Part shown: one piece after another, positions 3,497 to 63,041 of the stretch | Layout: each line of letters begins with the position of its first letter | How positions within the stretch are numbered: the first letter of the stretch is position 1 | NCBI GenBank assembly: GCA_913020435.1 | Contig: CAJVZZ010000005.1 | Location: 62,001-126,000 of the forward strand | Direction of reading: 5' to 3' | Length of the DNA stretch: 64,000 nt | Origin: an uncultured Flavobacteriales bacterium | GTDB taxonomy: Bacteria > Bacteroidota > Bacteroidia > Flavobacteriales_G > Salibacteraceae | The notes under the pieces: model-generated | What the model was told of the DNA's origin: nothing | The model's database searches: none | What the model saw: only the letters and a program-made list of their open reading frames with translations | Made by a program: the position numbers and the translations under genes

Positions 3497-4402
3497 ATGA
3501 TTAGACCTTCATATTTACAAAAAGGAGATACCGTTGCAATTGTAAGCCCTGCGAAGAAAATTACTCCTCAAGAAATTCAATTTGCTATTCAATTTTTAAA
3601 AAGCTTTGGTTTAAAGGTTGTCCTTGGAAAAAATATCTATAACTCGTGGAATCGATTTTCGGGAACTGATTTAGAAAGAGCAACTGATTTTCAATGGGCA
3701 TTAGACTCAAATGAAGTAAAGGCAATTTTTTGTTCTCGCGGAGGATATGGTTCTGTGCGTATGATAGACCAAATCGACTTTGATGTATTTAATGTAAACC
3801 CAAAGTGGATAATTGGTTACAGTGACATTACCGTGTTTCACAATCATATAAATTCGAATCACTCCACAATGACTCTTCATGGGCCAATGCCATTGAATAT
3901 TATTAATAAAATTGAAGAGTTAGATTCTGCGAACAAGTTAATTCAGCTGCTTTTTGGAAAGAAACAGAAAACAAACTTTACTTATCACCCACTTAATAAA
4001 TTAGGAGAAACTTCAGGTAAATTAATCGGCGGTAATCTCTCCGTGCTTTCCGATTTAGTTGGGACGAACAGTGATTTTGAACCCTCTAATAGTATTCTTT
4101 TCCTTGAAGACCTATGTGAAGAAAACTATAAATTAGATAGAATGCTATTTCATCTTCAAAAAAGCCAGAAATTCAATAACATAAAAGGTGTTTTGATCGG
4201 TGGATTTACAGAGATGACAGATCTATCAAATTGGTTTTTTGAAGATAGTTATGAATTAATTGCCAAACGATTTTATGACTTATCTATTCCAATTGCTTTT
4301 GGTTTTCCCGCTGGCCATATGAGCACAAATACTCCGCTGTTGTTAGGAGCCACATATTCTTTAACTGTTGAGAAGTCTAACTCTAAATTGGAATTATTAT
4401 AA
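3497..4402 (+). CDS. LD-carboxypeptidase, peptidase family S66
   Basis: This resembles LdcA/MccF-type serine peptidases, which remove the terminal D-amino acid from murein tetrapeptides during cell-wall recycling. The N-terminus has the family pattern [14 protein letters not shown], followed by CSRGGYG, the nucleophile elbow GYSDIT with Ser109, the central [15 protein letters not shown] (likely catalytic Glu) and the C-terminal [10 protein letters not shown] (likely catalytic His). At 301 residues it has the normal family length. No signal peptide is visible, so it is probably cytoplasmic. ATG 3497 is preferred over an upstream GTG at 3473 because the conserved domain starts immediately after it. 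It is divergent from metG and ends in a strong hairpin. Substrate is inferred. Confidence 0.9.
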
Positions 4403-4403
4403 A

Positions 4404-4445
4404 ACAAAAAGCCGCTTTTCAATAATTTGAAAAGCGGCTTTTGTT
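4404..4445. terminator. Bidirectional intrinsic terminator
   Basis: A 12-bp perfect stem (AAGCCGCTTTTC at 4409-4420 with GAAAAGCGGCTT at 4429-4440) is flanked by A runs on one side and T runs on the other. It lies between the converging LD-carboxypeptidase gene and the FecR-like gene and can serve both. Confidence 0.9.
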
Positions 4446-4472
4446 AGATTTTTTTATCGTCTAGTTCTTTGA

Positions 4473-5366
4473 TTATTTTACTCCAGATAACTCTAAAAAA
4501 GCATCGTATTCAATACGTATCATTTCAGATTCTGGAGCAAGAGCCAATGCTTTTTCAAAATTAGTAACAGCATCGACGTATAGTCCATTCACTTTGCAAA
4601 ACTTTGCCATTAAAGCATAATACAAAGGTGACGATTCATCTTTATTCTTATCGATTTCAATTAAGTCTTGCTGGAACTGAGCTCTTTCTATTTTGGAAGG
4701 AACTTTTAAAATTAATTCACCAGACTTCATACTCGGATTTGTATTACTAACTACAATCAACTTATAGAATGCATCTTCTTCAAATTCCACTTTCGATAAA
4801 TCCAAGGTTACAGCGTTACCAGTAACAACTTGCTCAATAATAGGCTCATCAAACAAATTTAGAACCTGTACTTTACATTCACCCAATTCAGCTTCAGAAG
4901 CCCATTGAATGGTGGTTGCCTTTTGCATAAAGTAAGTGCTTTCTGGAGAGAAAAGACTAATTCCATTATTCTCTAATGATCGTTCAACAGAACCCGTTAT
5001 TGACATATTGTTAGTAATACCGCCATCGTCTGCTGTCATTTCGTTAAAAACATATGACAAATAACGTTGAGCTAAACCTGAATTATCAGCTTTAAAATTA
5101 CCAGCCACATCATTCATTGTATAGATCCCAGCTTTATTCAAATTAACGGTACTTCCATTAGCACTGCTTAACTCTACAGCGCCGCCTTCACCTAACATAA
5201 TCTTGGCATTTGCTGGCAATTTCATACCCGGTCCTAATGGTTCATATTCTGTACCTTTTTGAACTACGTTCTCACCTTTTGCAGACAAGACTGTGAATAC
5301 TCCTTGAGCGATACTCGAAACGCTGATCAAAAGGGAAAACACTATAGGTAACAATTTTGTTTTCAT
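4473..5366 (-). CDS. Secreted FecR-like protein with C-terminal TPR-like segment
   Basis: A 297-residue protein with a Sec signal peptide at its N-terminus (about residues 1-20, LLPIVFSLLISVSSIAQ). Residues about 22-90 look like a FecR-type sensing domain: VLSAKGENVVQKG, GPGMKLPANAKIMLGEGG, ELSSANGSTVNLNKAG. The middle, about 130-220, is beta-rich. The end, about 235-297, carries helical repeat residues (LYYALMAKFCKVNGLYVDAVTNFEKALALAPES) typical of one or two TPR units. It has no transmembrane anchor, so it is probably periplasmic. It is divergently transcribed from the CHASE2 gene with a 124-bp shared region, and FecR and CHASE2 domains are often neighbours in bacteria, which suggests a joint signalling role. 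That role is inference; ligand and output are unknown. Confidence 0.72.
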   Translation of the reverse strand: MKTKLLPIVFSLLISVSSIAQGVFTVLSAKGENVVQKGTEYEPLGPGMKLPANAKIMLGEGGAVELSSANGSTVNLNKAGIYTMNDVAGNFKADNSGLAQRYLSYVFNEMTADDGGITNNMSITGSVERSLENNGISLFSPESTYFMQKATTIQWASEAELGECKVQVLNLFDEPIIEQVVTGNAVTLDLSKVEFEEDAFYKLIVVSNTNPSMKSGELILKVPSKIERAQFQQDLIEIDKNKDESSPLYYALMAKFCKVNGLYVDAVTNFEKALALAPESEMIRIEYDAFLELSGVK

Positions 5367-12223: not shown

Positions 12224-12418
12224 ATGGGGCGAAATAAAAAGTGTTGTAAAAAATTTGAAGAGAAAGGAAAATCAGCGTGCTCTGACTGCCCTATAATACC
12301 GGAGTCAACAACGTTTAAGATCTCAAAAAAGGATAAAAAGAAAGGTCGGAAGAAAACTAAAAAAGAAAAAAAAGACAAGAAGAAAAAGAAAAAAAGTTCT
12401 AAAAATCGTCATCTTTAA
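12224..12418 (+). CDS. Small Cys-rich protein with polylysine tail
   Basis: A 64-residue ORF beginning seven bases after the CDF stop, with AGGA just before the ATG. The N-terminal third has four cysteines in the order CC-x10-C-x2-C (MGRNKKCCKKFEEKGKSACS followed by DCP), which suggests a metal site. The second half is almost pure lysine with a few Arg, Asp, Glu and Ser. Similar CC...CxxCP miniproteins occur in Bacteroidota to my knowledge, but none has a function I can name. It could bind nucleic acid through the tail. The last 20 bases overlap the 3' end of the AsmA-like gene on the other strand. A longer frame from 12182 exists but overlaps the CDF gene. Confidence 0.6.
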   Translation: MGRNKKCCKKFEEKGKSACSDCPIIPESTTFKISKKDKKKGRKKTKKEKKDKKKKKKSSKNRHL

Positions 12419-15068
12419 AATCAAAATACTCTTTCTCTTCCTCATTTGGATCTAACCATTTCCGTTTCTTTCTAGTCTTTGGGTTTTTAGAGTCTACGTT
12501 ACCCGCTGAAATAGTAGTTGTATCCTTATCTGCCTCCTCCCATTCTATTTCATATTTAATTTTATGTGAATCTTTTTTCAAACTTGTATCTTTATCAAAC
12601 CACCCAAACTCTTTGTGAAGAGCTTGCTTAAATTCCTGTCCTTCTGCGCTCCTCTGATGCTTCTTGAATGCCTTTTTTGATGTTTTATCAATCTCAATTT
12701 TCAGATTATCCGTAGTGCCTTTCACCAACATAAAAACTCGATATCTTCCTGTGCCATCATCCACCACCTCGCCATTTTCAGTTTCGAAACTCCTATCTCT
12801 TATAAGTAAATCAGAAATGTCAAAATCGACTTTATAATCTACACTATCATTAAAACTATGTTTGCCAGATACGTTAACATTTAGAATACTTGACTTTAAT
12901 TGAACTTTTGGGATGAAAAGAGCGCTATTCTTAACGAAAAATTCAGTCTCCAGTTGATCAAAACTGACACCCTTTAAACGCTCAGACAAATCATTTGCAC
13001 GAAATACCTTTTTGAGTACAATATTGCTTTTAAAATAATCAGATATACTTTGTAACGTACTGTAATTAATCAACTTACCGCGATAAATATCTAAATGTGC
13101 ATTAGCAAAAATCGAAGCCGGTAACATCTCAAAATTGTCATTTAACTTGCCTTCTAAATTCAACTTCAGATTGGTTATACCAGCAATATTCTCTGCCTTA
13201 ACCTCATCCTGTCCGAAATTTTCAAACTGTGTAAATAGTTCTTTAATATCAACAGACTCAAATTCGCCAATAAAACTCATATTATATCCTCCTTTCGGAT
13301 AACTTACCACGGCCATCTTTCCTCTTGCCTTGCCATTCATAGCGAGCAGTTTAATAGGATTTGCTTTCAAGCTTTTTTGCCCAACAAATAATTTAGTTTC
13401 AACGTTTTGTGCTTTAAAATTCTCATAACTCAATCTACCAATTTTTGCACTCAACTGCAATTCAACTCCTGGAATTGCGAGTGAGCGTGTAGTTCCTTTT
13501 TCGGAAGATGCTGAAACAGATAAAAATTCTTCCAAAATCAATTTATCAGCTTCTACCTCTGCTACTACTCTCAATAACTCATATTCTCCTAAAGCCCATT
13601 GAAACAAGTTATCGGCACTCCCATTCAGTATGAAGTTGGTTGAGTTTAATTGACCTTCACTTTTTTCGAAACGGACTTGTTGTTTGTCGAACTTTACTTT
13701 TCCTTGATAATTTTTTAAAGTAGAAACGCTAGATTTTAGTTTCAATGCAACACCTGTGAAGTCAATGGCCCCTTCTATTTTACTTTTAGACGTTACAACT
13801 GATTCTTGCAAGATCTTATCCCAATAAATATCACCATAAAGATTAAAGACAACATCCCCTTGACAAGTATCTATTTTCTCCAGCTTCAAAAATTGAGTAA
13901 GTTCATCTAATGCAAGACTTCCCTCTAAATTACCTTTTACTCTTAAATCATTAAAATTTGAAATCTTAGCACTTCCCTTAAATGAACCCGATGGGAATCC
14001 GCCAGAGAGTTCAGTTAATTCTAGGGTTGAGCTTTCTGCATTCCTCTGTTTTCCATTGGAATAAAATCCAATTAAGTTCAATGACTTAAGCTCTATTTTT
14101 TTCTCTCCTTTGGTCACTACGCTTCCATTTGACAACTCAAAACCTATATCAATATTGGGGGTTTCAGACGATTTTCCTGATATTTTAAAATTAATTTTCG
14201 CTATCCCATTTGGAGCATAATCTATCCAATAATTATCCCATGACTCCGGTAATAGGTTGAGTACTTGCTCAAGATTAGCCTTATCTGTTTTGGCAAAGAA
14301 TTGAAAAGATTCCGGGGCAACAAATCCTCCTAAATTCAAATCAACTGTTTCGTCAATAATTACCTCACCATTTTGCAATTCAAAGGTAGATTGATTGTTA
14401 TTATATATTATTCCTGAATTAATCTGGACAGACTGCCCTTTTAGCGCGTATGCCCCTGCGACTAATACCGTTGAATTTGTAGTTTTTCCTTTAAACTTCA
14501 ACTCTAGCTGATCCGCTGAAAAATCTCCTTGAATCTTGAGTTTATTTACCTCACATTTCACAAGAATTTTATTCCGTGCATCCTTATACAAATAGTGAAA
14601 GTTCGAAAGGTTAACAGCGTCTAATTGAAACGAAATATCAACTGCCGAACTGTCTTTACTGGGCTTCCATATCATATAGTTTGGAGTTCCCTTCTTATTT
14701 TGCTTCATATAACACTTGGCCGATTCAACATCTAAATGACGCAATTTGTACTTACCGTTATATACATCCCATAAATCAAACTGAAAACTCAAATTCTCAG
14801 CATAAACAAGTGTGTCTGGATTAGATGAAAAATTCTTGCTTTCTTTTATCAATACCCTTGAAAAGGAAAGGCTTAAGTAAGGGATTTTACGAAATGATGA
14901 AAACTCAATGGCCCCTACATTCACTTCAGCATTGAGACTATTGTTTAGTTCTTGCAGAACTATATTTTGAATCTTATCACTATATTTTTCAGACAAATAC
15001 CACCCTGCTCCCAAAAAAGCTAAAGTCAATAGTAGTAAAGTGATAAATATATATCGCAAAAATCGCAT
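12399..15068 (-). CDS. AsmA-like envelope protein
   Basis: 889 residues. One N-terminal membrane helix (residues about 4-26, YIFITLLLLTLAFLGAGWYL) is followed by the AsmA-type start (LQELNNSLNAEVNVGAIEFSSFRKIPYLSLSFSRVLIKES) and then a long run of amphipathic beta strands to about residue 800. AsmA and TamB proteins are inner-membrane-anchored periplasmic proteins thought to form lipid-carrying bridges to the outer membrane. The C-terminus is highly charged (from about residue 810) and may lie outside the beta structure. It has the usual length for the family in Bacteroidota. It is monocistronic and converges on the small Cys-rich gene. Role inferred from fold only. Confidence 0.8.
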   Translation of the reverse strand: MRFLRYIFITLLLLTLAFLGAGWYLSEKYSDKIQNIVLQELNNSLNAEVNVGAIEFSSFRKIPYLSLSFSRVLIKESKNFSSNPDTLVYAENLSFQFDLWDVYNGKYKLRHLDVESAKCYMKQNKKGTPNYMIWKPSKDSSAVDISFQLDAVNLSNFHYLYKDARNKILVKCEVNKLKIQGDFSADQLELKFKGKTTNSTVLVAGAYALKGQSVQINSGIIYNNNQSTFELQNGEVIIDETVDLNLGGFVAPESFQFFAKTDKANLEQVLNLLPESWDNYWIDYAPNGIAKINFKISGKSSETPNIDIGFELSNGSVVTKGEKKIELKSLNLIGFYSNGKQRNAESSTLELTELSGGFPSGSFKGSAKISNFNDLRVKGNLEGSLALDELTQFLKLEKIDTCQGDVVFNLYGDIYWDKILQESVVTSKSKIEGAIDFTGVALKLKSSVSTLKNYQGKVKFDKQQVRFEKSEGQLNSTNFILNGSADNLFQWALGEYELLRVVAEVEADKLILEEFLSVSASSEKGTTRSLAIPGVELQLSAKIGRLSYENFKAQNVETKLFVGQKSLKANPIKLLAMNGKARGKMAVVSYPKGGYNMSFIGEFESVDIKELFTQFENFGQDEVKAENIAGITNLKLNLEGKLNDNFEMLPASIFANAHLDIYRGKLINYSTLQSISDYFKSNIVLKKVFRANDLSERLKGVSFDQLETEFFVKNSALFIPKVQLKSSILNVNVSGKHSFNDSVDYKVDFDISDLLIRDRSFETENGEVVDDGTGRYRVFMLVKGTTDNLKIEIDKTSKKAFKKHQRSAEGQEFKQALHKEFGWFDKDTSLKKDSHKIKYEIEWEEADKDTTTISAGNVDSKNPKTRKKRKWLDPNEEEKEYFDFKDDDF

Positions 15069-15327: not shown

Positions 15328-15353
15328 TGTAACTTTTTTGAAAGTGTACCGTC
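15328..15353 (+). promoter_or_regulatory. ECF-type promoter of the sigma factor gene
   Basis: TGTAAC (15328-15333) and CGTC (15350-15353) are separated by exactly 16 bases, the classic -35/-10 layout of ECF sigma factors. It lies 21 bases before the sigma ATG and matches the promoter at 16954, pointing to autoregulation. Confidence 0.75.
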
Positions 15354-15374
15354 CTATCCCTGAGCTTAACATAA

Positions 15375-15863
15375 ATGACCCGAAAAGAATACAATACTGC
15401 GGTTGACTTGCATGCCGATGGACTTTATCGATTCATACTTAAAAGTATGAGTGATAATGAGGCGGCTAAAGACGTTGTACAAGATGTCTTTACTAAACTT
15501 TGGGTAAAGCATGAAAACGTAGAGTTCGAAAAGACCAAATCCTATTTGTTTACTGCTGGTTATAATACAATGATCGATGTCTTTAGAAAAAACAAAAGAC
15601 TAACTCAAATGGATGAGTCAGCAGTGAACCTGCACTCACATTCTGGTCAATATTCAGACTTAGAAGAAATATTAGAAAAGGCGCTTCAAATATTACCCGA
15701 AATCCAACGATCTGTTGTAATGCTGAGAGATTATGAAGGATACAATTATCAAGAAATTGGTGAAATAGTAAACCTTACTGAATCACAAGTCAAGGTGTAC
15801 ATTTTTAGAGGTCGCAAAGCGTTGCAACAGTATTTAAAAAGTATTGAAACGGTGTTAGAATGA
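15375..15863 (+). CDS. ECF RNA polymerase sigma factor
   Basis: 162 residues, the normal size for a two-domain ECF sigma factor. Region 2 is at about residues 7-75 (YNTAVDLHADGLYRFILKSM, DEAAKDVVQDVFTKLW, KSYLFTAGYNTMIDVFRKN). Region 4 is at about 98-155 (LEKALQILPEIQRSVVMLRD, the helix-turn-helix YNYQEIGEIVNLTESQVKVYIFRGRKAL). It directs RNA polymerase to a small regulon. The next gene overlaps it by four bases (ATGA) and has anti-sigma topology. The presence of matching TGTAAC-N16-CGTC sites before this gene and before the barrel gene at 17024 suggests it recognises its own promoter and that one. Confidence 0.93.
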   Translation: MTRKEYNTAVDLHADGLYRFILKSMSDNEAAKDVVQDVFTKLWVKHENVEFEKTKSYLFTAGYNTMIDVFRKNKRLTQMDESAVNLHSHSGQYSDLEEILEKALQILPEIQRSVVMLRDYEGYNYQEIGEIVNLTESQVKVYIFRGRKALQQYLKSIETVLE

Positions 15864-16951
15864 ACAAAATAGATCGACATAACTACGAAGCATTTTACCT
15901 AGATTATATCGAGGCAAACCTTAATGCCGAAGAAACTACAGAGCTATTATTGTTTCTTGAAAACCATACTGATTTAAAAAATGAATTCGAGGGTTTCGAA
16001 ATGATCACTTTGAACGCTAATGAAAAAATTAGCATTAACTTTTCTGATTTAAAAAAAGAGATAACACCTTTAAATGCAGAAGACTTCATAATCGGATCAA
16101 TTGAAAATCAACTGACTGAAGACGATGAAAAAGAGTTGGCTACTGTAATCTTTAAAAACAACAGTCTACAAAAATCAGCAACTCTTTACTCCAAAACTAT
16201 CCTTCCAAAATCTATAATTAAATTTCCAGAAAAAGCCAAGCTTAAAAGGAAAGCAGGAATACTAATTTTCATGACACCTTTGCGGCGATTTGCAGCTATT
16301 GGATTGTTGTTAATTGCCTTAGTTTCATTTTTAAATCGAGAAGCTAAGGTTGAGTTGGCCGATAATAAAAAACCGATTGATGATGTAACAAACGATAGTT
16401 CTCTTACTTTCAAAAAAAACAGTATTCCTTCTGAAACCGTTTTTGAAAAGTCTCCGAATCCAGTTAAAAGTAAAACAAAGCTTATTGCTAATAAAGTTAG
16501 GTCTACTTCTTCAACTATAACCAAAAATGAAATCGCTATTGCCAATCCAGAGTCTGCGAAAGAAAAGAAAAGTAAACCTAGTCTGCAGCTAGAATTGTTA
16601 GAACCAAAAAGACTTAAGAAAGTCTTGGTCACTAAATCAGAGGATGCTCTAGCAGTAAATAAAGTTGAAATATCGACCCCTTCTGAACCAATAGAATTGC
16701 TTGCAAAAGCCGAAACTGAAGCTCAAACTATAGGAGAATTCTTGAATCAAAACATTCGAAAAAAATTATTTAAAAATGACGAAGCTAAGGATGATAAAAT
16801 TCAAGGAAATGAACTGCTAGCGAGCGCAACAACATTACTTCAACAAAAAACAAACGCAAACATAGCATTCACTCACAGAGAAAGCGCATCAAGTACTTCT
16901 TACAGCTTTACGCTTGGAAAACTCAGCTTTTCGAAGACAAAAAACAACTAA
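15860..16951 (+). CDS. Putative anti-sigma factor, single-pass membrane protein
   Basis: 363 residues, overlapping the sigma gene by four bases, so translation is coupled. The N-terminal 140 residues are acidic and probably cytoplasmic, with two similar segments (YEAFYLDYIEANLNAEETTE and EDFIIGSIENQLTEDDEKE), each reminiscent of the start of an anti-sigma domain. One membrane helix follows at about 146-163 (FAAIGLLLIALVSFL). The rest is Lys/Ser/Thr-rich, low in complexity and probably periplasmic. No enzyme or known sensor domain is seen. Position and topology give the anti-sigma call; no direct homology to a named family was recognised. The doubled N-terminal motif is unusual. Confidence 0.65.
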   Translation: MNKIDRHNYEAFYLDYIEANLNAEETTELLLFLENHTDLKNEFEGFEMITLNANEKISINFSDLKKEITPLNAEDFIIGSIENQLTEDDEKELATVIFKNNSLQKSATLYSKTILPKSIIKFPEKAKLKRKAGILIFMTPLRRFAAIGLLLIALVSFLNREAKVELADNKKPIDDVTNDSSLTFKKNSIPSETVFEKSPNPVKSKTKLIANKVRSTSSTITKNEIAIANPESAKEKKSKPSLQLELLEPKRLKKVLVTKSEDALAVNKVEISTPSEPIELLAKAETEAQTIGEFLNQNIRKKLFKNDEAKDDKIQGNELLASATTLLQQKTNANIAFTHRESASSTSYSFTLGKLSFSKTKNN

Positions 16952-16953
16952 GC

Positions 16954-16979
16954 TGTAACAATCTATTAAGTCGGTCGTC
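16954..16979 (+). promoter_or_regulatory. ECF-type promoter of the barrel gene
   Basis: TGTAAC (16954-16959) and CGTC (16976-16979) are 16 bases apart, the same boxes and spacing as at 15328. Both are preceded by AGC. It starts right after the anti-sigma stop and lies 44 bases before the ATG at 17024. Confidence 0.75.
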
Positions 16980-17023: not shown

Positions 17024-17857
17024 ATGAAAACAATTACACTATTAATCGGACTATTAATTTGCACCTCAGGAGCTTTTGCTCAAAAAGACAGTTTAAAAGA
17101 AAAGGAGCCAGATACTACTAAAATCAAAATTGGAAATTCAACAGTTATTATCCTGAATAATGTTGATTCAGATGACTACGATTTCGATTTTAACTCAAAA
17201 GATTCTAGCAAAACATGCAAAGATGATAGCGACGACAATGATATGGGGTTAGCCCTTGATTTTGGAATGGCCGGTTATATGACTCCATCAAACTCTATCG
17301 CATTACCTGTAAATCAAAATTTAATGGAACTCAACTCTGCCCGCTCTCACAGCGTAGGACTTACAATCATGTTTAAAGAAGCAAGATTAGCTAAAGAAAG
17401 ACTGTATGTTCGGTCTGGTCTTGGTATTAACTGGACCAAATACCATTTCAAAAACAACATCAATATATCAACTTCCAACGATTCAACTGCATTCACCATG
17501 GACAGCATTAGAAGTTTTGATAAATACAAACTCAGAGCAACTTATTTGCAAGTTCCTTTATTAATTGGAATGCGATTGGGCGACTTGGACAATCCGTTAG
17601 GAATTCAATTTGGTGTAGTAGGAAGCTATAAAATTGGATCAATCATAAAACAGAAATATACGTTGGGAGAAACTACGATGAAAGAAAAAACCAAAGATGA
17701 CTTCAATTTAAACCCTTTCAAGTTTGAAGCATTAGCAAGAGTTTCAATGGATGACTTTGGTTTCTTCGCCAAATATTCTTTGACCGAATTATTTGAGTCA
17801 GGACGAGCTCCTGAACTCTATCCTTTTTCGATCGGCATTACAATTGGTGGGTTTTAA
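17024..17857 (+). CDS. Outer-membrane beta-barrel protein, PorT-like
   Basis: 277 residues with a signal peptide (MKTITLLIGLLICTSGAFAQ). An acidic linker rich in Asp (about 40-80, VDSDDYDFDFNSKDSSK and CKDDSDDND) is followed by about eight alternating amphipathic strands (about 85-277) ending in a Phe-containing strand (PFSIGITIGGF), as in small outer-membrane barrels of the PorT-like group. The Asp-rich linker might bind calcium; this is inference. It is the likely target of the upstream ECF sigma factor, having its own copy of the ECF promoter, and is closed by a terminator. Exact function unknown. Confidence 0.75.
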   Translation: MKTITLLIGLLICTSGAFAQKDSLKEKEPDTTKIKIGNSTVIILNNVDSDDYDFDFNSKDSSKTCKDDSDDNDMGLALDFGMAGYMTPSNSIALPVNQNLMELNSARSHSVGLTIMFKEARLAKERLYVRSGLGINWTKYHFKNNINISTSNDSTAFTMDSIRSFDKYKLRATYLQVPLLIGMRLGDLDNPLGIQFGVVGSYKIGSIIKQKYTLGETTMKEKTKDDFNLNPFKFEALARVSMDDFGFFAKYSLTELFESGRAPELYPFSIGITIGGF

Positions 17858-17868
17858 AAAATAATTGA

Positions 17869-17902
17869 AACAAAAAACGAGACCTTAGTCCCGTTTTTTG
17901 TT
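17869..17902. terminator. Bidirectional terminator
   Basis: AACAAAAAACG pairs perfectly with CGTTTTTTGTT, with an inner GAC/GTC pair around one mismatch. It separates the converging barrel gene and rluB-like gene, and both sides have T-rich ends. Confidence 0.8.
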
Positions 17903-26269: not shown

Positions 26270-27793
26270 ATGAAAACATTAAAATCGACACTTACCCTAA
26301 CGCTCCTTATAGTTCTTACAAACGCCTGCATAAACAAGGATCATTTCGATTTCAAAAACATTAATGACACTTCTTGGAATCCTAAATTCGCTATTCCTTT
26401 ACTAAAAGCTAATGTCGGTGTTTACAATTTATTTGGAGCAACCGACAGTAATGCTGTTTCCTTTAACGGTAAAGATGTAAGCCTGATTTATCAAAGTAAA
26501 GCAGTTAGTTTACAAATGGACGATATTATTAATCTGCAGGACATATCCACTCCAGATGTGCAAGTAGGTTACAGTACTCCCAATCCAATTAGAATACCAT
26601 TGGATTCTTCTTTGAATAAAATTGAATCTATACATTTATCGACTGGTAAAATGACAATTAACACCCGTATCCAAGGAACTGCGGACCAATTAACTTTTAC
26701 TTTTTTAGATATTAAAGATGACAATAACCGGGAATTAGAAATCCAAATAACGGAAGGGCAATCAGAAACTGCTTCATTACTTAATCATTCGATTATTCCG
26801 GATAATGGATCTGTTCGCTTCTCAATTACCAGCCTTTCTGCAGGAACTTGTAATGCCCAAATTTCAATGACCGGATTAGACTTTAAGAGTGTTACTGGTG
26901 ATTTTAATTTCGGAGAGATACGTTTACCAAAAGATTCCTTTGAGTTGTACTTGTTTCAAAATATTGCAGCAAAAGGTAATATCTCAATTAATAACCCCAT
27001 CCTTTCTATCAAAGCAAAAAACAGCATTGGTATTGCTTTAGAGCCACTATTTGACAGGGTTGAATCACGAAACCCTGCCTCCGATGATGTCACTCCACTA
27101 ATTATCAAAGCTTCTTCAACTATTAACGATATTAAAGCAGGAACGCAAACTGGAAATATAGTTGAAAGTGAAATCAGATTGGATAATTCCAATTCTAACC
27201 TACGAGATTTCGTTAGTTTAAGTCCTAAGTTTTTAACTTATGAACTGGGATTCAATATCAAAAACAACTCTTCAAAACCGAGTACCATTTTCAAAAACTC
27301 ATCTTGCGAATTGGAAATGGATATTGAATTGCCTTTGGAAGGTAGGGTTTCCGCATTTGAAGTGCTCGACACGATTGACATGCAGGTAACTAGCGATTTA
27401 ACCCTTATCAAAGAGTTTCTAATCAAAACATACACCAACAATGGCTTTCCGTTGGATACAAAAATTACAATTCTTCTTATGGATGAAAATCGTCAACTGA
27501 TGCGCAAAGAAGACGGATCTGTAATGATTCTTCTGGATAAAGTTTTTACTGCTGCAGCGCAAGTTGATGGAGATGGCATTGTGATTCAAAGTACTATTGT
27601 CAGCTCTGATAATCCTCTGTTGGATGAAGAAATACTGGCAAGTTTACCGTTGGCAAAGTATGGTCAAATGAGGGCTTCAATGACAACCACTAACGATGGC
27701 AATGATGTTGTGAAAATTCAATCTGACTACAATTTAGAAGTTAGAGTAGGAGTGAAAGTTACTGGAAACATTAATTTAACCGAAAAGGAATGA
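26270..27793 (+). CDS. Large lipoprotein, partner of DUF5723 barrel
   Basis: About 507 residues. The lipoprotein signal (TLTLTLLIVLTNAC) puts the acylated Cys near residue 20. The mature part is almost entirely beta-structured, with Ile/Asn/Ser-rich strands and no catalytic motif. ATG 26270 is used; a GTG five codons upstream is possible. The stop overlaps the ATG of the DUF5723 gene by four bases, and this pairing suggests that the two proteins work together at the outer membrane. I do not recognise a named family. First gene of a three-gene coupled operon with the barrel and the CHAT protease. Confidence 0.65.
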   Translation: MKTLKSTLTLTLLIVLTNACINKDHFDFKNINDTSWNPKFAIPLLKANVGVYNLFGATDSNAVSFNGKDVSLIYQSKAVSLQMDDIINLQDISTPDVQVGYSTPNPIRIPLDSSLNKIESIHLSTGKMTINTRIQGTADQLTFTFLDIKDDNNRELEIQITEGQSETASLLNHSIIPDNGSVRFSITSLSAGTCNAQISMTGLDFKSVTGDFNFGEIRLPKDSFELYLFQNIAAKGNISINNPILSIKAKNSIGIALEPLFDRVESRNPASDDVTPLIIKASSTINDIKAGTQTGNIVESEIRLDNSNSNLRDFVSLSPKFLTYELGFNIKNNSSKPSTIFKNSSCELEMDIELPLEGRVSAFEVLDTIDMQVTSDLTLIKEFLIKTYTNNGFPLDTKITILLMDENRQLMRKEDGSVMILLDKVFTAAAQVDGDGIVIQSTIVSSDNPLLDEEILASLPLAKYGQMRASMTTTNDGNDVVKIQSDYNLEVRVGVKVTGNINLTEKE

Positions 27794-29166
27794 GAAAATT
27801 AGCTAGCGTCTTAATACTTGTTCTTTCGTTATTTTTAAATGGAACTGCACAGCAAGACCTTACCTTATACGAATTAAGAGCGGCGCCACAATCGCACTCC
27901 TTAAACCCCTCTAAATTACCTTTATGTACTGGCTATTTGTTATTGCCAGGAATCAGCGGTGCTTATACCTCAATTAATAGTGAAGGCTTTACTTATGCCG
28001 ATGCTTTTCAATTGAATAGTGACAAAACAATTGACATAAAGCTGAACGACGCAATTGAAAAAATGAAAGACTTGAACAATATCAGTTTCGATTTTAAGGC
28101 ACCAATATTCGGCGTTGGCTTTAGAATGGGTGCTGGTTTTGCATCTTTTGGAATCGAAACTAAAGGATCAAGTCGATTTACTATTCCAAAAACTTTAGCA
28201 GAATTTATTTGGTTAGGCAACGCTGATGAAAAATTTCTTGGTAAACGAGCAAATTTCGATGGATTAGGAATTGATCTCATGCAATACACTGCAATTGCCT
28301 TTGGATACGCGCGTGATTTTAATGAAAAGTGGACATTTGGAATTAAAGCAAAGTACTTAAGTGGTCAGGCTTTCTTGCGAACGACCAAGAGCAGCATAGG
28401 CATTTCTACAAATTCAGAAAACTATGCGATAACACTTGATGGTCAATTACAAATACAATCAGCAGGGGTGGCCGGACTAGTCATTGATTCATTATTAAAT
28501 TTTAATGGATTTAACTTCAGTGATATTGGAAATCAATTAACCAATGCTGGGTCAGGTAATCATGGCGGTGCTATTGACCTAGGAGCAACCTACCGAATTA
28601 ATGAAAAAATCTCTTTTAATGCTTCTGTAATAGATTTAGGATTTATTAATTGGGCAGCATCTGCAGTTACAAAAACCTCTAAACCCACTAGCTATACCTA
28701 TGATGGAATAGCTATTACAGATATTGCAAGCGGAAAAGATGAAACTGAGAGTATTATTGGATCTTTAGACACCCTTTTCAAAAGTATCGAGTTCGACGAA
28801 AAACAAGAGTCCTTCACTACGACTTTACCAATTAAAATATATGCTGGTGGAAATTATCGGATACTTCCGAAAACAGATCTTTCAATAATTACATACAACG
28901 AACTTTACAATGGTAGATTTAAAACTTCTTTGCGTTTTGGTGTAACACAGCGCGTTAGAAATTTCTTAATGGCTACCTTAAACTATTCGGTTTATGGAAA
29001 TAGTGCTGCTAATATCGGAGCTGGATTTACTATTAATGCCGGACCCGTGCAATTGTATACTGTTACAGATAATGTAATCGCATTTATGTTGCCAAAAAAG
29101 AGCAAAAACTTTCACCTACGAATTGGAATAAACCTAACGTTTGGAAACAATTTTAGCCAGAACTAA
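27790..29166 (+). CDS. DUF5723-type outer-membrane beta-barrel protein
   Basis: 458 residues with signal peptide MRKLASVLILVLSLFLNGTAQ. The mature protein has the FadL-like look of DUF5723 proteins: NPSKLP, LLLPGISGAY, LWLGNADEKFLG-like EFIWLGNADEKFLGKRANFDG, ALGYARDF-like AFGYARDFNEKWTFGIKAKYLSGQ, and DLGATYRINEKISFNASVIDLGFINW. About fourteen amphipathic strands are likely. Such proteins are placed in the outer membrane of Bacteroidota, function unknown. The ATG overlaps the upstream lipoprotein stop (ATGA), and the CHAT gene begins three bases after its stop, so all three should be made together. Confidence 0.8.
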   Translation: MRKLASVLILVLSLFLNGTAQQDLTLYELRAAPQSHSLNPSKLPLCTGYLLLPGISGAYTSINSEGFTYADAFQLNSDKTIDIKLNDAIEKMKDLNNISFDFKAPIFGVGFRMGAGFASFGIETKGSSRFTIPKTLAEFIWLGNADEKFLGKRANFDGLGIDLMQYTAIAFGYARDFNEKWTFGIKAKYLSGQAFLRTTKSSIGISTNSENYAITLDGQLQIQSAGVAGLVIDSLLNFNGFNFSDIGNQLTNAGSGNHGGAIDLGATYRINEKISFNASVIDLGFINWAASAVTKTSKPTSYTYDGIAITDIASGKDETESIIGSLDTLFKSIEFDEKQESFTTTLPIKIYAGGNYRILPKTDLSIITYNELYNGRFKTSLRFGVTQRVRNFLMATLNYSVYGNSAANIGAGFTINAGPVQLYTVTDNVIAFMLPKKSKNFHLRIGINLTFGNNFSQN

Positions 29167-29169
29167 AAA

Positions 29170-32100
29170 ATGACAAAATCTTTCTTTTCAATTTTAAAAC
29201 TACTCCCTTTCTGCGTGGTTCTTTTGTTGTTGTCAACTCAGATTTACGCTCAATCAAAGTGGGTCAAAAAAGGGGAAAAAGTTGTAGAAAAAAACGAGCG
29301 AGATTTCAAAAAAGGAGATTATTTAACCGCAAAAATGAGAGCAAGTCGTTTGCTTAAAAAAATGAGGAAAAACGGCCAGATGTCTACTCAATATTATACT
29401 TATATTTCGCTCTTAAATACCCGTAATATTGAAGGTTTGGGGCAATTAATGGCAGTAAGAGATAGTTTAGAAAACGGGATTTTCTATTTTAATATGTTCA
29501 TTCGCCCAGACAGCTCTTTATATACTCCATGCCTTCTCGCAATAGGTGAGGCATATTTAGAAAATGGTAATTATATCAAATCAGAACAATATCTTAAGCG
29601 GGTTGAAGAGCAAGTCACAGAACGGCTAAAGAACGCAACCGCTTTAACCATTCCGGATTCACTGGAAAATAGGGCACGAAAGAAACGCGCTTTTTATGTA
29701 TCGGACCCTATGAACAATACGGATTCAGTATTATACAATTATGTCCGTAAATTAAAATTGAGAATTAAAATGCAACGTGGCTTTTTCAACGAAGCAGAAG
29801 GAGCAATTGAAAATCTAATAGTATATCAAGCCAAAATATCACAACGTACCTTTTGTAATGCTGATACCAGTGCAAAAAGACCAATGGTCAAAATCAAAAA
29901 AAGAGAATACAAAAAAAGACAAATAACTCTCGCAGACTTATACGTTACTAAAGCAGATTTCTATCGACTTTCTGGGAATTATCAAAAAGCAGCAACATTA
30001 TACTATGAAAATGAGACTTCCTTCAAAAAAACAGTGTCTAAAAAGAGCCTTCCTTTTGTGAAAAACAATTTCGGAAAAGCTGTTATGGCAGAAAGCGATG
30101 GACGCCTTGAAAAACCCTATAAATATTACAAGGCGATTAAAAAGCAGGTTATCAAAAGCGGTCAAATCTCTAACTACCACAAATTCTATAACGAAGTAGC
30201 CGAAAAAGAAATAGAATCCTATTTATCAGAGGATAAAGATAAAAAAGCGCGTCATCTATATTTAAAGTATAAGCTGGATAATCAGCATAAATACGGAACT
30301 AAAAGCGTCTATTTCCTTCGAGCAATTATGCTTGAAAATGAATATTATTCTCAAAAATCAAGGTACAAAAAAGCGGTAAAGCGAGAGGATAAATTAAAAG
30401 AGGGAATCCGAAAGGTAATTCCTTACGACAACATCGCTCATCTTCAATTCAACGACCACTTCTACAATTTCTATTCTAAAAACAACCGAATAGAAGAGGC
30501 GAGAATAGAGCGAGAAACCAACGAGTGGATTGCAGGGTTGAATATGAATAAAAATGCTCCAAATTATTCCATAGAAAAAATAAAACTTGCTGATTTCAAT
30601 ATTAAAAATCAAGACAAATTTGCTGAGGCTAAAGCAGTATATGAGAAACACTTTGAAGGCGTTTTTAGAAAACAATTTCATTCGCAACATCCTATTTACA
30701 GTGAGTTCCTTGAGTCTTATAGCCTTCTTAAGACTTACATTGATGAATATGACGAAGCTTACCGCTTAGCAGGCGAACGATTAAAAATAGCTAATGAAAA
30801 ATATGGACCGGAGAGTGAAGGTTATGCTTTGGCATTAATTCAACTTAGTGAAATAAATATTTTAAAAGGTGAGTATGACCAGGCCGAGTCACAATTAGAA
30901 GCAGCCTCCGGAATCATTAAAAATGAGTCTAGTAAAAAGAGTAAAGCATATTATATTTCACTCAAGAACCTTGCGGATATATACATGATCAACGGTAAGT
31001 ATCAAGAAGCTGAAAACACCTACAAAAAGGCTTTTAAACTGCTTAAAAAATCAGGTGAAGGTGGGAACTTAGATATCAAATCATCTGAAGATATGGCCAA
31101 ATTATATATGACAACTGGCCAATATAAAGATGCTGAAAATATAATTAAGCAGTCTATTTCTGCAAATGAAATAAAGTTTGGAGGTGATCACTTCAAACTT
31201 GTGAAACCATTGAATTTATACGCTCAACTATTCCTCATATTAGGTGAATATATCGAAGCTGAAAAAAGAACCAGCAGAGCTATTGATATTGCTGAGAAAA
31301 GCTTGGGAGATACTAGCGTTGCGTATATGGATAACTTGATGTTATTAGGAGAAGTCTACATTAAAATGGGTAATTATAATGATGCTCAAAAAATATATGA
31401 AGATGCTTTAATTCTTATTCGTAAAAAATTCGGTGAAGAAAACATACGTGAGGCAGACATATTAAAGTCGCTTGCCGATGCTAACTTTAGATCTAAAGAC
31501 GCGGATTTAGAAACTATTAATGGCTATCTCGATCGCGCTAAGGACATCGTGATTACTAGCTTTAACCCTGCACATCCAGATTATGGCGCATTACTAGAAT
31601 ATCAAGGTAGAGTATTTATGCTTTTCGAAAAATATCCTGAAGCCAATTTAATGCTAAAAGATGCACAGTTTATTTGGTTGCAAAAGTTTGGAAAGAACGA
31701 CATAAACACGGCACGAAACGAAATGCTCGTTGGTGATCTAAAGTACTTGCAAGAAAAATACGAAGAGGCTGGAGAAAGCTATGAAAATGCCGCGCAATCC
31801 TATAAATCTTTATTTAATGATAACCATCCTGGCTACTTGGAAGCAAAAAGTAAACAAGCAAAAAGTTATTACGCAGAAGGTAACTTAACCAAAGCTAAAG
31901 TAGTTTATGACCGAACTACAGAGAGCTATTTAGGTTACATCAAAGATTACTTTCCTGCGCTTTCAGAATCGGAAAAAGGCAAATATTGGAATTCTATTAA
32001 ACGTGATTTTGAAATCTACAATTCACTCGCTTTGGCCACTTACAATAAAAACAACAAAGCTTTACGTAATGTTTACAACTTCAAACTATCTACTAAAGCA

Positions 32101-33519
32101 ATTCTCCAAAGTAGTTCTACAAAGCTTAAATCTAGAATTCTAAATTCTAACGATGGAAATCTAATTTACCGTTTCGATCAATATAACGAAATGAAAGACA
32201 TGCGGACTAAAGGTTTAGCAATGTCAGCTAATGAGCGAGAGGTAAATGGCATTAATATGTCCAAATTGAGCAAAGACATTAATGCATTGGAAAAAGAACT
32301 GAGTGAAGAATCTGAAGACTTTGCTGGAGCAGTGGATGGAGAACAATTTACATGGAAAGATGTAAAGAAAAGCCTAAATGAAAATGAATACGCAATGGAA
32401 ATTATTCGTTTCAGACATTTTGACAAACGGCTTACTGACAGCGTATTATACGCGGCGCTTATTATAAACCACAAATCAAAAGGCCCTGAGCTAGTATTGT
32501 TGAATAATGGCAATAAGTTGGAAAAAAAATACTTTAAAGGCTATAGAAACAGTATAAAGTACAAAGTCAATAAGGACAAGTACAGCTACCCTAATTTTTG
32601 GAAAGCAATTGATGAAAAAATCGCAGATGACGCTAAAATTTTTGTCTCGGCTGATGGTGTTTATAACCAATTAAATATTGAAACGCTTCAAGATGAAAAT
32701 GGGAAATTCATAATAGAGAAAAATGAAATCTATAACCTGAGCAATACCAAGGATCTTGTATTAGCTCGTCGTGAAGAATACAAAGAAACCTACGACAAAT
32801 CAACCGCCATGCTTATGGGTAATCCAAGTTTTGCAGCTGCTGGAAGCGACATTAACATGGGGAATAAAGTAACATCAATTGATGCATTACCCGGTGCTGA
32901 AGAAGAAATAAAACAAGTTGGTAAATTACTCAATGGAAAAGAGTGGCAAACCCAAATAATGGTTCAAGAAGAAGCTACAGAGCAAGCATTGAAAAAAATG
33001 AACAGCCCTAGGGTGTGTCACATTGCAACCCACGGTTTCTTTATGCAAAAGTCTAAAGTGGATTATAAAAAAAATGAAATTACTGGTGACTTTGCGGATA
33101 ATCCTCTGTTGCGTTCAGGACTTTTATTTACTGGAGCAGGTGAATTATTAGAGAACAACAACATTTACGACTTCAATAAAAAAGACGGAATCTTGACTGC
33201 TTATGAAGCCATGAACTTAAATCTTGACCATACTGAATTGGTTGTTTTAAGTGCTTGTGAAACTGGTGTTGGAGAGATTAAATCGGGTGAAGGAGTGTAT
33301 GGTTTACAACGTTCATTTATTGTTGCTGGTGCTAAAAACGTAATTATGACTTTGTTCAAAGTAAATGATCAAGTGACTCAAGAACTTATGAATGACTTCT
33401 ATAAACAATGGCTAGAAACAGGTGATATGAGAATGGCTTTCCAAAATGCGAAAATAAAAATTAAAAACAAATATCAAAAACCGGTATACTGGGGAAGTTT
33501 TGTGCTGATTGGAATGTAA
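29170..33519 (+). CDS. Exported TPR-CHAT caspase-like protease
   Basis: 1449 residues. A signal peptide (about 1-29, LLPFCVVLLLLSTQIYAQ) is followed by many TPR-like helical repeats over about 30-930, for example YQEAENTYKKAFKLLKK, YKDAENIIKQSI, YIEAEKRTSRAIDIAEKSLGD and YNDAQKIYEDALILIRKKFGE. A helical linker with coiled-coil character (about 960-1070) precedes the CHAT domain at about 1085-1449. The caspase-type dyad is intact: His1288 in CHIATHGFF and Cys1363 in VVLSACETGVGE, with the closing block PVYWGSFVLIGM. CHAT domains are clan CD peptidases, best known in defence and signalling. A secreted one, coupled to an outer-membrane lipoprotein and barrel, suggests periplasmic or surface proteolysis. 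Substrate unknown. yraN overlaps by one base. Confidence 0.88.
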   Translation: MTKSFFSILKLLPFCVVLLLLSTQIYAQSKWVKKGEKVVEKNERDFKKGDYLTAKMRASRLLKKMRKNGQMSTQYYTYISLLNTRNIEGLGQLMAVRDSLENGIFYFNMFIRPDSSLYTPCLLAIGEAYLENGNYIKSEQYLKRVEEQVTERLKNATALTIPDSLENRARKKRAFYVSDPMNNTDSVLYNYVRKLKLRIKMQRGFFNEAEGAIENLIVYQAKISQRTFCNADTSAKRPMVKIKKREYKKRQITLADLYVTKADFYRLSGNYQKAATLYYENETSFKKTVSKKSLPFVKNNFGKAVMAESDGRLEKPYKYYKAIKKQVIKSGQISNYHKFYNEVAEKEIESYLSEDKDKKARHLYLKYKLDNQHKYGTKSVYFLRAIMLENEYYSQKSRYKKAVKREDKLKEGIRKVIPYDNIAHLQFNDHFYNFYSKNNRIEEARIERETNEWIAGLNMNKNAPNYSIEKIKLADFNIKNQDKFAEAKAVYEKHFEGVFRKQFHSQHPIYSEFLESYSLLKTYIDEYDEAYRLAGERLKIANEKYGPESEGYALALIQLSEINILKGEYDQAESQLEAASGIIKNESSKKSKAYYISLKNLADIYMINGKYQEAENTYKKAFKLLKKSGEGGNLDIKSSEDMAKLYMTTGQYKDAENIIKQSISANEIKFGGDHFKLVKPLNLYAQLFLILGEYIEAEKRTSRAIDIAEKSLGDTSVAYMDNLMLLGEVYIKMGNYNDAQKIYEDALILIRKKFGEENIREADILKSLADANFRSKDADLETINGYLDRAKDIVITSFNPAHPDYGALLEYQGRVFMLFEKYPEANLMLKDAQFIWLQKFGKNDINTARNEMLVGDLKYLQEKYEEAGESYENAAQSYKSLFNDNHPGYLEAKSKQAKSYYAEGNLTKAKVVYDRTTESYLGYIKDYFPALSESEKGKYWNSIKRDFEIYNSLALATYNKNNKALRNVYNFKLSTKAILQSSSTKLKSRILNSNDGNLIYRFDQYNEMKDMRTKGLAMSANEREVNGINMSKLSKDINALEKELSEESEDFAGAVDGEQFTWKDVKKSLNENEYAMEIIRFRHFDKRLTDSVLYAALIINHKSKGPELVLLNNGNKLEKKYFKGYRNSIKYKVNKDKYSYPNFWKAIDEKIADDAKIFVSADGVYNQLNIETLQDENGKFIIEKNEIYNLSNTKDLVLARREEYKETYDKSTAMLMGNPSFAAAGSDINMGNKVTSIDALPGAEEEIKQVGKLLNGKEWQTQIMVQEEATEQALKKMNSPRVCHIATHGFFMQKSKVDYKKNEITGDFADNPLLRSGLLFTGAGELLENNNIYDFNKKDGILTAYEAMNLNLDHTELVVLSACETGVGEIKSGEGVYGLQRSFIVAGAKNVIMTLFKVNDQVTQELMNDFYKQWLETGDMRMAFQNAKIKIKNKYQKPVYWGSFVLIGM

Positions 33520-60719: not shown

Positions 60720-63041
60720 ATGACAAACAATTCAACATACCTCAATATTCTGTTTTTTGCAGTCGTGCTTTCCTTTTTTACTAAAAATGGAAATACGCAA
60801 CAAGTTGTGATTAACGAAATTATGAGTTCCAACTATTCGTCTTGGTATGACGAAAACCAAAATACTCCTGATTGGATTGAGCTTTACAACCCCTCCAACT
60901 CTTCAGTTAATTTATCTAATTATGCGTTATCAGATAAAAGGGATAACTTAAGAAAATGGGTGTTTTTAAATGATACAATTGGAGCAAACGGCTTCCTAAT
61001 TATTGCCGCTTCAGGAGAGAATAAAAAACAACCCAGTTCAACTTTACATACTAATTTCAAAATTAGCGCAGAAGGAGAACGTCTTTTTCTGACCAATAAT
61101 ACGGGTGTTATTATTGATAGTACTCCAGAAATTCATTTACCTGTAAATCATAGTCATGGAAGAATAAAAGACGGAAATGATACCACAGGCGTTTTTTTTC
61201 AATCCACTCCCAATGCCTCTAATAGTAGTAGCTTTTTTATTGAGGAAATATCCTTTTCAAGGAAATTTGGTTTTTATGCTGCCCCTTTCAATTTACAATT
61301 GACTTGTTTAGACTCTATATATTATTCTATTGATGGATCAGAACCCTCAACCCAATCAAAATTGTACGCCAACACAATTCGAATTGATGCCAAGCCAAAG
61401 AGTGCTCTTAGTTTAATCCCAACCACGCATATTAGAAATGACACTGAAAGCCAGCTTGAAAATCAATTTGGATTCAAGGTTCCTGATAAAGAAACACGCA
61501 GAGGAGTCGCTTTTCGTGCTCAATCATTTAAAAATGGACAACCTACAAGTAAAATCTATTCAGGCACGTTTTTTACCAATGCAGACAAATATTCATTCCC
61601 TGTAATTTCACTTATTCTAGACTCTAATCAACTTTTCAATTACGCCAGAGGGATTTACGTTCCTGGAATTCATTGGGATGAATCTAACGTTGGTTGGACG
61701 GGAAATTATTATCAACGTGGACGTGATTGGGAACGTATAGCCAGTATGGAGTTTTTTAATGAACACCGCTTCAAACAATTTTCAGAAACTATTGGATTGC
61801 GCATTTCTGGTAACAAATCAAGAGATTATCCACAAAAATCGCTACGAATTTATTTTAGAAAGGACTATGGAATGTCAGAAATTCCAAATTATTTCTTTCA
61901 GCAAAGGGCGTATGAAAAATTAAAACGAATAAGTCTAAGGTCATCTTTCACGTATTGGAATGACCGAAATTTATTATTTCAAGACGACGTAATTCACGAA
62001 TTAGCATGGCGGTCAGGGCTTAACATAGATGTTCAACATTCTCAGCCTTCTATAGTTTTTATTAACGGAGAATATTGGGGAATTCATAATATTCGTGAGC
62101 GACAAGACAATGATCATATAAGTAACTTATATGATATCCCAAAAAACGGAGTCAATATTATTTCGGGCAACCTAAATTTAGAGGAAGGAGACCCTAAGTC
62201 TTTTAAAGATCTTTTGGATTTTACAACAATAAATGAACTGAGTAATCTTACAAATTATGCTCACGTAGAATCAATAATTGATATGGATAGTTATGTTGAC
62301 TATTTCATTATTGAAACCTTTTTTGGAAATGCCGATTGGCCTGACAATAACATGAAAATGTGGCGTAAAAACGAAGAAGAGTCTAAATGGAGGTGGCTTC
62401 TCTATGATTTAGATGCTACAGGTGTCTACCCAAACAATAATCCCTTCATTTTCCTAAAAGATACAGCAAACGATCAAGTTCAACTTTTTAGATCTCTCAT
62501 GGAAAATGAAATTTTTGTAGAGCGATTTACTAATCGATATTTCGAATTACTTTCCACATCATTTTTACCTTTTCGGATTCAAGAAATGGTAAAAATTAAA
62601 ATGGACTTATATGGGCCGGAGATATCGGCTCATATAGACCGTTGGGGCAATCCTGTTTCCTATGAAAACTGGATAGAGAGTTGTAAGCAGTTTCTTGATT
62701 TTCTAGACAAACGTCCATGTGTTGTTCAACAAGCTCTAATTGATGTTTTTAAATTACCGAAAAAAGATATTCTTAATTGTATTGAAGAACCTGAAGCAAT
62801 AACCCAGTTAAGTATTTATCCAAATCCAAGTTCAGCTTTCATTGAAGTAAAAACCAATGCTACCATTAAGGAACCACTAATTTTTGAAATATTCTATAGT
62901 AATGGACTTCTTATACAATCTTATAGACTGACAGAAAATAAGCACAACATCAATCTAGGCAACTATAGTGATGGATTATACATTGGAAAAACAACAATAA
63001 ATGGGCGAAGCAATGTTTTAAAATTTGTAATCGCAGATTAG
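60720..63041 (+). CDS. CotH-kinase secreted protein with lamin-tail and type IX sorting domains
   Basis: 773 residues. Signal peptide, then a lamin-tail domain (about 28-140, VVINEIMSSNYSSWYDENQN, DWIELYNPSNSSVNLSNYAL). Next is a chitobiase-C-like segment (about 180-225, YYSIDGSEPSTQSKLYA). Then the CotH-like kinase fold (about 290-650): GLRISGNKSRDYPQKSLRIYF, FINGEYWGIHNIRERQDNDH, YVDYFIIETFFGNADWPDNN, WRWLLYDLDATG with the Asp residues of the active site. The C-terminal 75 residues are a type A sorting domain (LSIYPNPSSAFIEVKT). CotH kinases phosphorylate proteins outside the cell; here target unknown. The type IX tail places it on the surface. Confidence 0.9.
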   Translation: MTNNSTYLNILFFAVVLSFFTKNGNTQQVVINEIMSSNYSSWYDENQNTPDWIELYNPSNSSVNLSNYALSDKRDNLRKWVFLNDTIGANGFLIIAASGENKKQPSSTLHTNFKISAEGERLFLTNNTGVIIDSTPEIHLPVNHSHGRIKDGNDTTGVFFQSTPNASNSSSFFIEEISFSRKFGFYAAPFNLQLTCLDSIYYSIDGSEPSTQSKLYANTIRIDAKPKSALSLIPTTHIRNDTESQLENQFGFKVPDKETRRGVAFRAQSFKNGQPTSKIYSGTFFTNADKYSFPVISLILDSNQLFNYARGIYVPGIHWDESNVGWTGNYYQRGRDWERIASMEFFNEHRFKQFSETIGLRISGNKSRDYPQKSLRIYFRKDYGMSEIPNYFFQQRAYEKLKRISLRSSFTYWNDRNLLFQDDVIHELAWRSGLNIDVQHSQPSIVFINGEYWGIHNIRERQDNDHISNLYDIPKNGVNIISGNLNLEEGDPKSFKDLLDFTTINELSNLTNYAHVESIIDMDSYVDYFIIETFFGNADWPDNNMKMWRKNEEESKWRWLLYDLDATGVYPNNNPFIFLKDTANDQVQLFRSLMENEIFVERFTNRYFELLSTSFLPFRIQEMVKIKMDLYGPEISAHIDRWGNPVSYENWIESCKQFLDFLDKRPCVVQQALIDVFKLPKKDILNCIEEPEAITQLSIYPNPSSAFIEVKTNATIKEPLIFEIFYSNGLLIQSYRLTENKHNINLGNYSDGLYIGKTTINGRSNVLKFVIAD

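Follow-up and report, generated by a model that had tools for sequence, protein, structure and literature searches.

The locus described here lies within a window of 64 kb (the whole stretch of DNA that was analyzed, 36% G+C), which forms part of a 2.95-Mb genome in 50 contigs. Three genes follow one another on the forward strand. The first (positions 15375-15863) encodes an ECF sigma factor of 162 aa that consists of regions 2 and 4 only, with matches to PF04542 (1e-9) and PF08281 (5e-16) that both exceed the cut-off. The second (15860-16951) encodes a putative anti-sigma factor of 363 aa, and its start overlaps the end of the sigma gene by 4 nt (ATGA). The third (17024-17857) encodes an outer-membrane beta-barrel protein of 277 aa (PF13568, 1.7e-6; AF2 pTM 0.64), and beyond it, at 17871-17901, a putative terminator was picked out by eye from the sequence, an imperfect hairpin with runs of A and T on its flanks. 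Among named relatives the nearest is an uncultured Flavobacteriales bacterium, whose sigma factor is 86% identical. The nearest curated sigma family is NF058625 of NCBIfam (sigma_PG0214; GFO_1088 family, PG0214 of Porphyromonas gingivalis); all 14 aligned members match it, and the window sigma, at 113.8 bits, falls under its curated cut-off of 130.

Several other genes of the window may be mentioned in passing. Divergent from the sigma gene, on the reverse strand (12399-15068), lies the gene for a protein of 889 aa that has an N-terminal membrane anchor and no Pfam match, and that looks by eye like an envelope protein of the AsmA/TamB type. Farther along, positions 29170-33519 encode a protein of 1449 aa that combines numerous TPR repeats with a CHAT (caspase-like) domain at its C-terminus, after a DUF5723 protein (27790-29166). 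At 60720-63041 lies the gene for a T9SS-sorted protein of 773 aa that contains CotH kinase and lamin-tail domains.

The initial annotation of the locus pointed to two identical ECF promoters, and both sites are borne out. The first, P1 (15328-15356, forward strand), precedes the sigma/anti-sigma operon; it has TGTAAC at 15328-15333, a spacer of 16 nt and CGTC at 15350-15353 (TGTAACTTTTTTGAAAGTGTACCGTC at 15328-15353), and the CTA that comes next fits a conserved NYA. From this CGTC to the ATG of the sigma gene there are 21 nt. The second, P2 (16954-16982, forward strand), precedes the barrel gene with the same -35 TGTAAC, 16-nt spacer and -10 CGTC (TGTAACAATCTATTAAGTCGGTCGTC at 16954-16979), followed by TTA, and here 44 nt separate CGTC from the ATG. 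These are the only two exact occurrences of TGTAAC-N16-CGTC in the window, where 0.14 would be expected, and none of 100 shuffles reached two; a search of the window for the same boxes with other spacers, from 12 to 21 nt, gave no match. Each of the two is also preceded by AGC, as had been noted at the outset. AGC as a promoter element was rejected as a local coincidence, since it stands at just 19 of 168 sites in relatives, where only C at -1 is common (63-81%).

Across the whole 2.95-Mb genome the exact motif has four matches, two of them P1 and P2, so that the concern raised with the first proposal, that the motif might be common at random, does not hold. The other two matches are antisense and lie within coding ORFs of 496 and 544 aa. 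When one mismatch was allowed and NYA was included, six matches were found genome-wide as against ten for the reversed control, which is no excess. A larger regulon in the source genome was rejected on these two grounds, and the motif search indicates a regulon confined to the sigma/anti-sigma/barrel locus. The earlier description of the regulon as "closed" thus fits the source genome as far as motif search can tell; it does not extend to relatives, which have further targets (see below).

The distribution of the locus was followed through its proteins. The anti-sigma protein is present in 20 of the 35 genomes of the window's family and, by profile, in 27 of 42 genomes of the order and in 155 of 295 genomes sampled in the class, and the barrel profile, which also counts paralogous barrels, has matches in 235 of the 295. 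When named genomes were searched with an alignment of the sigma factor, 80 loci came up, most of them in metagenome bins of Bacteroidales and Flavobacteriales, along with two isolates, Carboxylicivirga linearis and Ancylomarina sp., and in all 80 the anti-sigma profile adjoins the sigma gene. With near-identical sigma sequences removed, the pooled set comprises 158 distinct Bacteroidota sigma loci, and the anti-sigma gene adjoins the sigma gene in 157 of them. The loci were picked by similarity to the window proteins, and the counts therefore describe this sigma/anti-sigma family rather than ECF systems at large.

The exact motif, with a spacer of 16 or 17 nt, stands before the sigma gene in 115 of 156 distinct loci and before the adjacent barrel gene in 53 of 95, and 50 loci have both promoters; in the same upstream regions the reversed motif was found zero times and the opposite strand gave one match. 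By a count of exact matches, it is absent from 26% of the sigma loci and 44% of the adjacent barrels. The full consensus is YTGTAAC-N16/17-CGTCNYA, or YTGTAAC-WWW-N13/14-CGTC-NYA when the sites are pooled, and the third base after CGTC is an A in 97% of sigma promoters and 100% of barrel promoters. The boxes are conserved across families and before very different proteins, and the sequence of the spacer is not. P2 starts 3 nt past the anti-sigma stop codon, and a coincidence at the end of a gene is conceivable on that account. The low expectation in the window, the conservation of boxes but not spacers and the empty reversed control all argue against it, and it is exceedingly improbable that the two matching boxes reflect chance or a shared coding constraint, in agreement with the view first put forward.

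A second alternative is that the motif is the promoter of some other ECF sigma factor, of which the local sigma gene is merely a target. Boxes with AAC at -35 and CGT at -10 are common to ECF sigma factors in general, and the source genome encodes a number of others (16 region-4 matches). Within the window's family, however, the motif tracks the locus: TGTAACN16-17CGTCNYA has 68 sites across the 20 genomes that encode the anti-sigma protein, but 14 that lack it have just three between them, each within coding sequence. (The remaining genome, G013, was kept apart from the 14; it lacks the anti-sigma protein yet has the sigma promoter, and contains two matches.) The motif also recurs before the gene of the same sigma at most of the distinct loci, and the spacer length changes together at the two sites: of the 50 loci with both promoters, 37 have spacers of equal length (Fisher p 3e-4, kinship uncorrected). 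Most loci of the window's own family have 16/16 spacers and three have 17/17. Such joint changes are expected if one sigma factor reads both promoters, and control by a different sigma is improbable. In nine genomes (G228, G279, G254, G103, G142, G101, G264, G116 and G175) the barrel gene has a location separate from that of the sigma gene, and the motif is retained both before it and before the sigma/anti-sigma pair. The conservation of the promoter pair over much of Bacteroidota and the agreement of the spacers thus provide strong comparative support for what was first proposed from the two boxes, namely that the sigma factor regulates its own gene and has the barrel gene as a direct target.

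The additional sites in relatives suggest what else such a sigma factor may control. Beyond the main locus there are 35 sites, of which 20 lie entirely between genes, compared with 14% of random 29-nt segments from the same loci (p 3e-9). The genes that follow them largely encode exported proteins, although their functions were named by eye rather than by profile. They include secreted proteins of small size (about 100-120 aa), which form a tandem pair in two genomes, proteins that start like carboxypeptidase-regulatory-domain proteins, and an enzyme resembling prolyl oligopeptidases, the last two again judged by eye. Searching genomes for the motif before envelope genes therefore favors an envelope regulon, and because the genes behind these additional sites in relatives are mostly for exported proteins, the system can reasonably be regarded as an envelope stress circuit, as had been suggested. 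The tandem pairs lie at loci L396 and L405 of two related genomes (G014:C6 and G021:C6), where the genes encode 102-aa secreted proteins and each has its own TGTAAC-N16-CGTCATA promoter. A further oddity is found in G013 (L192, C23), where a single ORF at 3785-4891 runs from a sigma factor truncated in region 4 into the barrel. The anti-sigma gene is missing there and the promoter motif in front is intact; this may be a deletion or an assembly error. For comparison, Dma3 of Bacteroides is described with a sigma domain in the same chain.

The 363-aa protein has no accepted match in Pfam or NCBIfam, and Pfam searches with ten of its relatives returned only chance matches below the cut-off. The HxxxCxxC zinc motif is found in 0 of 157 relatives, and with neither this motif nor a Pfam anti-sigma domain in its sequence the window protein does not qualify as a class I anti-sigma factor of the zinc type. 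Searches of the PDB were likewise negative: a fold search with the anti-sigma model gave nothing below E 0.1, and sequence searches with the anti-sigma and barrel proteins were unproductive. The two similar acidic segments that had been noticed in its N-terminal half are real, and correspond to a tandem repeat of a three-helix module in the AF2 model (pLDDT 80-88 over residues 9-50 and 73-113). Repeat 1 (15878-16009, residues 7-50) has predicted helices at residues 9-17, 23-35 and 37-50, and repeat 2 (16070-16201, residues 71-114) has them at 73-81, 87-99 and 101-113. A profile of repeat 1 detects repeat 2 with E 5e-3 in the window protein and up to 3e-10 in relatives; it recovers 4/4 repeat-2 sequences (after a length filter), and the repeat-2 profile recovers 16/16 repeat-1 sequences. 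The repeats had been called unusual, which is fair with respect to the tandem helical modules themselves. Within the family repetition is the rule, with one to six copies: among the 157 relatives one copy was detected in 34 proteins, two in 92, three in 26, five in 2 and six in 1, and none in 2.

After the modules comes a predicted transmembrane helix (16277-16339, residues 140-160), and a stretch of this kind is present in 154 of the 157 relatives. The periplasmic part would then begin with a tether (16340-16729, residues 161-290) that is predicted to be disordered, with pLDDT below 50 over residues 159-289, and end with a C-terminal segment (16730-16945, residues 291-362) that AF2 models, with low to moderate confidence (pLDDT about 50-70), as a pair of helices and a meander of three strands. 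The part after the membrane helix has a median of 197 aa (167-232 aa for the 5-95% range) in the 157 relatives, a nearly constant length despite a poorly conserved sequence, and it is the cytoplasmic part that varies with the number of repeats. A tail consensus near "WDIAxxGvxgixkltG...-aGkFxisR", drawn up by eye, recurs throughout the class, even where no barrel gene is adjacent. The position of its gene, its predicted topology and its helical modules indicate that the 363-aa protein probably restrains the sigma factor. The fixed length of the tether and the conserved tail suggest, in addition, that it reaches the outer membrane, where it may touch the barrel.

The barrel protein begins with a hydrophobic, signal-like stretch, followed by a short hairpin, an acidic disordered linker that runs to residue 72 and about ten strands. 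Its PF13568 (OMP_b-brl_2) score is 28.7 bits, over the gathering cut-off of 27, and a fold search with the AF2 model places it among small barrels of the OmpA/Ail/OmpX type. The Asp-rich linker had been offered as a possible cation sensor. It is indeed acidic, but among relatives it varies freely, with an acidic fraction of 16-40% and no conserved acidic positions, and cation sensing by the linker was rejected as unsupported. In many families a DUF2807/GIN head domain replaces the short linker, and this domain is what was found in barrel ORFs of 470-530 aa that had been considered as candidate fusions with the anti-sigma protein. No ORF matching both profiles was present at any locus, and in 22 further genomes no fused proteins were found, all barrels being secreted and separate. 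The source genome has a second barrel of the same profile (L147, G000:C18:53036-53728) with neither an adjacent sigma gene nor the motif. More distant barrels of this profile (loci L304-L333) are often encoded downstream of ECF sigma factors from another, divergent group, which hints that trios of sigma, anti-sigma and barrel genes recur within the class.

The nearest known counterpart in design is the Dma/Das system of Bacteroides. There an anti-sigma domain, a membrane helix, a disordered tether and a barrel are joined in one chain, encoded beside an ECF21 sigma factor (PMC13088901), and deletion of dma2 raises the expression of its own operon (PMC13088901; Pardue 2024 as cited there). The two systems share their occurrence in Bacteroidota, an ECF sigma gene beside an anti-sigma (putative in the window) that has an N-terminal anti-sigma domain, one membrane helix and a long disordered tether, and, as a further part, a barrel of the outer membrane; in the model of the window protein the corresponding parts are the helical modules (residues 9-113), to which sigma binding would fall, the helix (140-160) and the disorder (159-289). 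Unlike in Dma, the anti-sigma and the barrel of the window are separate ORFs (the first ends with a stop at 16951), the barrel has its own promoter and start, tandem modules and a periplasmic C-terminal segment are present in the anti-sigma, and the barrel is sometimes unlinked in relatives. The window system is therefore not a Dma, whose defining feature is a single polypeptide, since its barrel is a separate protein with a promoter of its own and no fused form was found at any locus; the comparison is one of architecture, not sequence. A similar distinction applies to M0N98_03761/03760 of Phocaeicola vulgatus, whose sigma gene is raised 33-fold under an envelope-damaging toxin (PMC9308784), and to EcfO of B. 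fragilis (cited in PMC9308784). These too are envelope-stress ECF sigma factors whose anti-sigma reaches the outer membrane, but there the anti-sigma is fused to a C-terminal barrel, whereas the window system consists of two proteins.

Other systems offer more general parallels. In Flavobacterium psychrophilum, the SM6 promoters, defined by mapped transcription starts, share a CGT box at -10, and one of them lies before the ECF sigma/anti-sigma pair THC0290_1774/1773 (PMC9723704), which offers a precedent for autoregulation of this kind. That class also covers T9SS genes, may serve several sigma factors and is described in the text without a TGTAAC box (PMC9723704). The sigma-E/RseA system and other autoregulated ECF units resemble the window system in having an autoregulated operon, a membrane anti-sigma and envelope targets. 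They differ from it in that the window anti-sigma has tandem three-helix modules and no accepted Pfam match, and its family lacks the HxxxCxxC motif.

Two views of the barrel can be weighed against this background. The window system might be a Dma in two pieces, in which the C-terminal segment of the anti-sigma docks on the periplasmic N-terminus of the barrel and the barrel itself takes part in sensing. The parts occur in the same order as in Dma, the periplasmic length of the anti-sigma is nearly constant, its tail is alike across the class, loci with unlinked barrels included, and the barrel gene is the most constant target. The lack of any fused ORF at these loci tells against such a sensor, the likeness to Dma is one of architecture, and a barrel that is simply an abundant product need not sense anything; we would put its chances somewhat short of even. 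The barrel may instead be an effector only, an ordinary outer-membrane protein made under stress, with proteolysis of the anti-sigma conveying the signal in the manner of sigma-E/RseA. Its generic small OmpA/OmpX-type fold, the exchange of the linker for a DUF2807/GIN head in many families and the extra sites before other secreted proteins in relatives would all be in keeping with an effector, although a pure effector role leaves unexplained both the fixed tether length and the retention of the barrel, alone among targets, nearly everywhere. This, too, is possible, with the balance leaning slightly against it.

The genes probably constitute an autoregulated unit of an ECF sigma and a membrane anti-sigma, with the outer-membrane barrel as a linked target. 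Its gene order, both promoters with their conservation and co-variation, the repeats, the membrane helix and the tether length emerge from comparison of sequences; the sigma binding, release mechanism, barrel contact and signal that we infer would be as follows. Transcription by the sigma factor would start at P1 for its own operon and at P2 for the barrel gene. The tandem cytoplasmic three-helix modules of the 363-aa protein would hold the sigma at the inner membrane, while the membrane helix, the disordered tether of fixed length and the C-terminal segment would monitor the outer envelope. Disturbance of the outer membrane would free the sigma, probably via proteolysis or loss of contact, leading to more sigma, anti-sigma and barrel, and in relatives also to further exported proteins. 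New barrel would then repair the envelope, re-engage the C-terminal segment, or both, turning the circuit off, and the extra anti-sigma would reset it.

The original proposal of a circuit "of a new type" overstates the case for an ECF sigma/anti-sigma unit so near to Dma in design; the system is a widespread and apparently undescribed variant, one whose sigma group or promoter might already be listed in an ECF classification or in the 2024 Dma paper. More tentatively, the system may exemplify an undescribed, Bacteroidota-wide class of anti-sigma factors with a variable three-helix array that holds the sigma, a fixed periplasmic ruler and a tail that reads a separate barrel, in effect the two-piece counterpart of Dma, although the odds are perhaps slightly against it. 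The consensus promoter provides a direct handle on the regulon in any genome with the system, and the combination of a variable repeat number with a fixed periplasmic length leads to testable predictions on how a signal passes across the envelope. A recognizable class I anti-sigma domain lies beside only 6% of Bacteroidetes ECF sigma factors, compared with 32% over all phyla, and the survey that reported these values suggested that other anti-sigma classes dominate in Bacteroidetes (PMC7406223). If the proposed class is real, it would explain some of the ECF sigma factors of Bacteroidetes for which no anti-sigma is apparent. The 363-aa family, whose gene adjoins the sigma gene at 157 of 158 loci and which was detected in 155 of the 295 genomes sampled, is contained in neither Pfam nor NCBIfam; it is a candidate for one of these other classes and could partly fill this gap.
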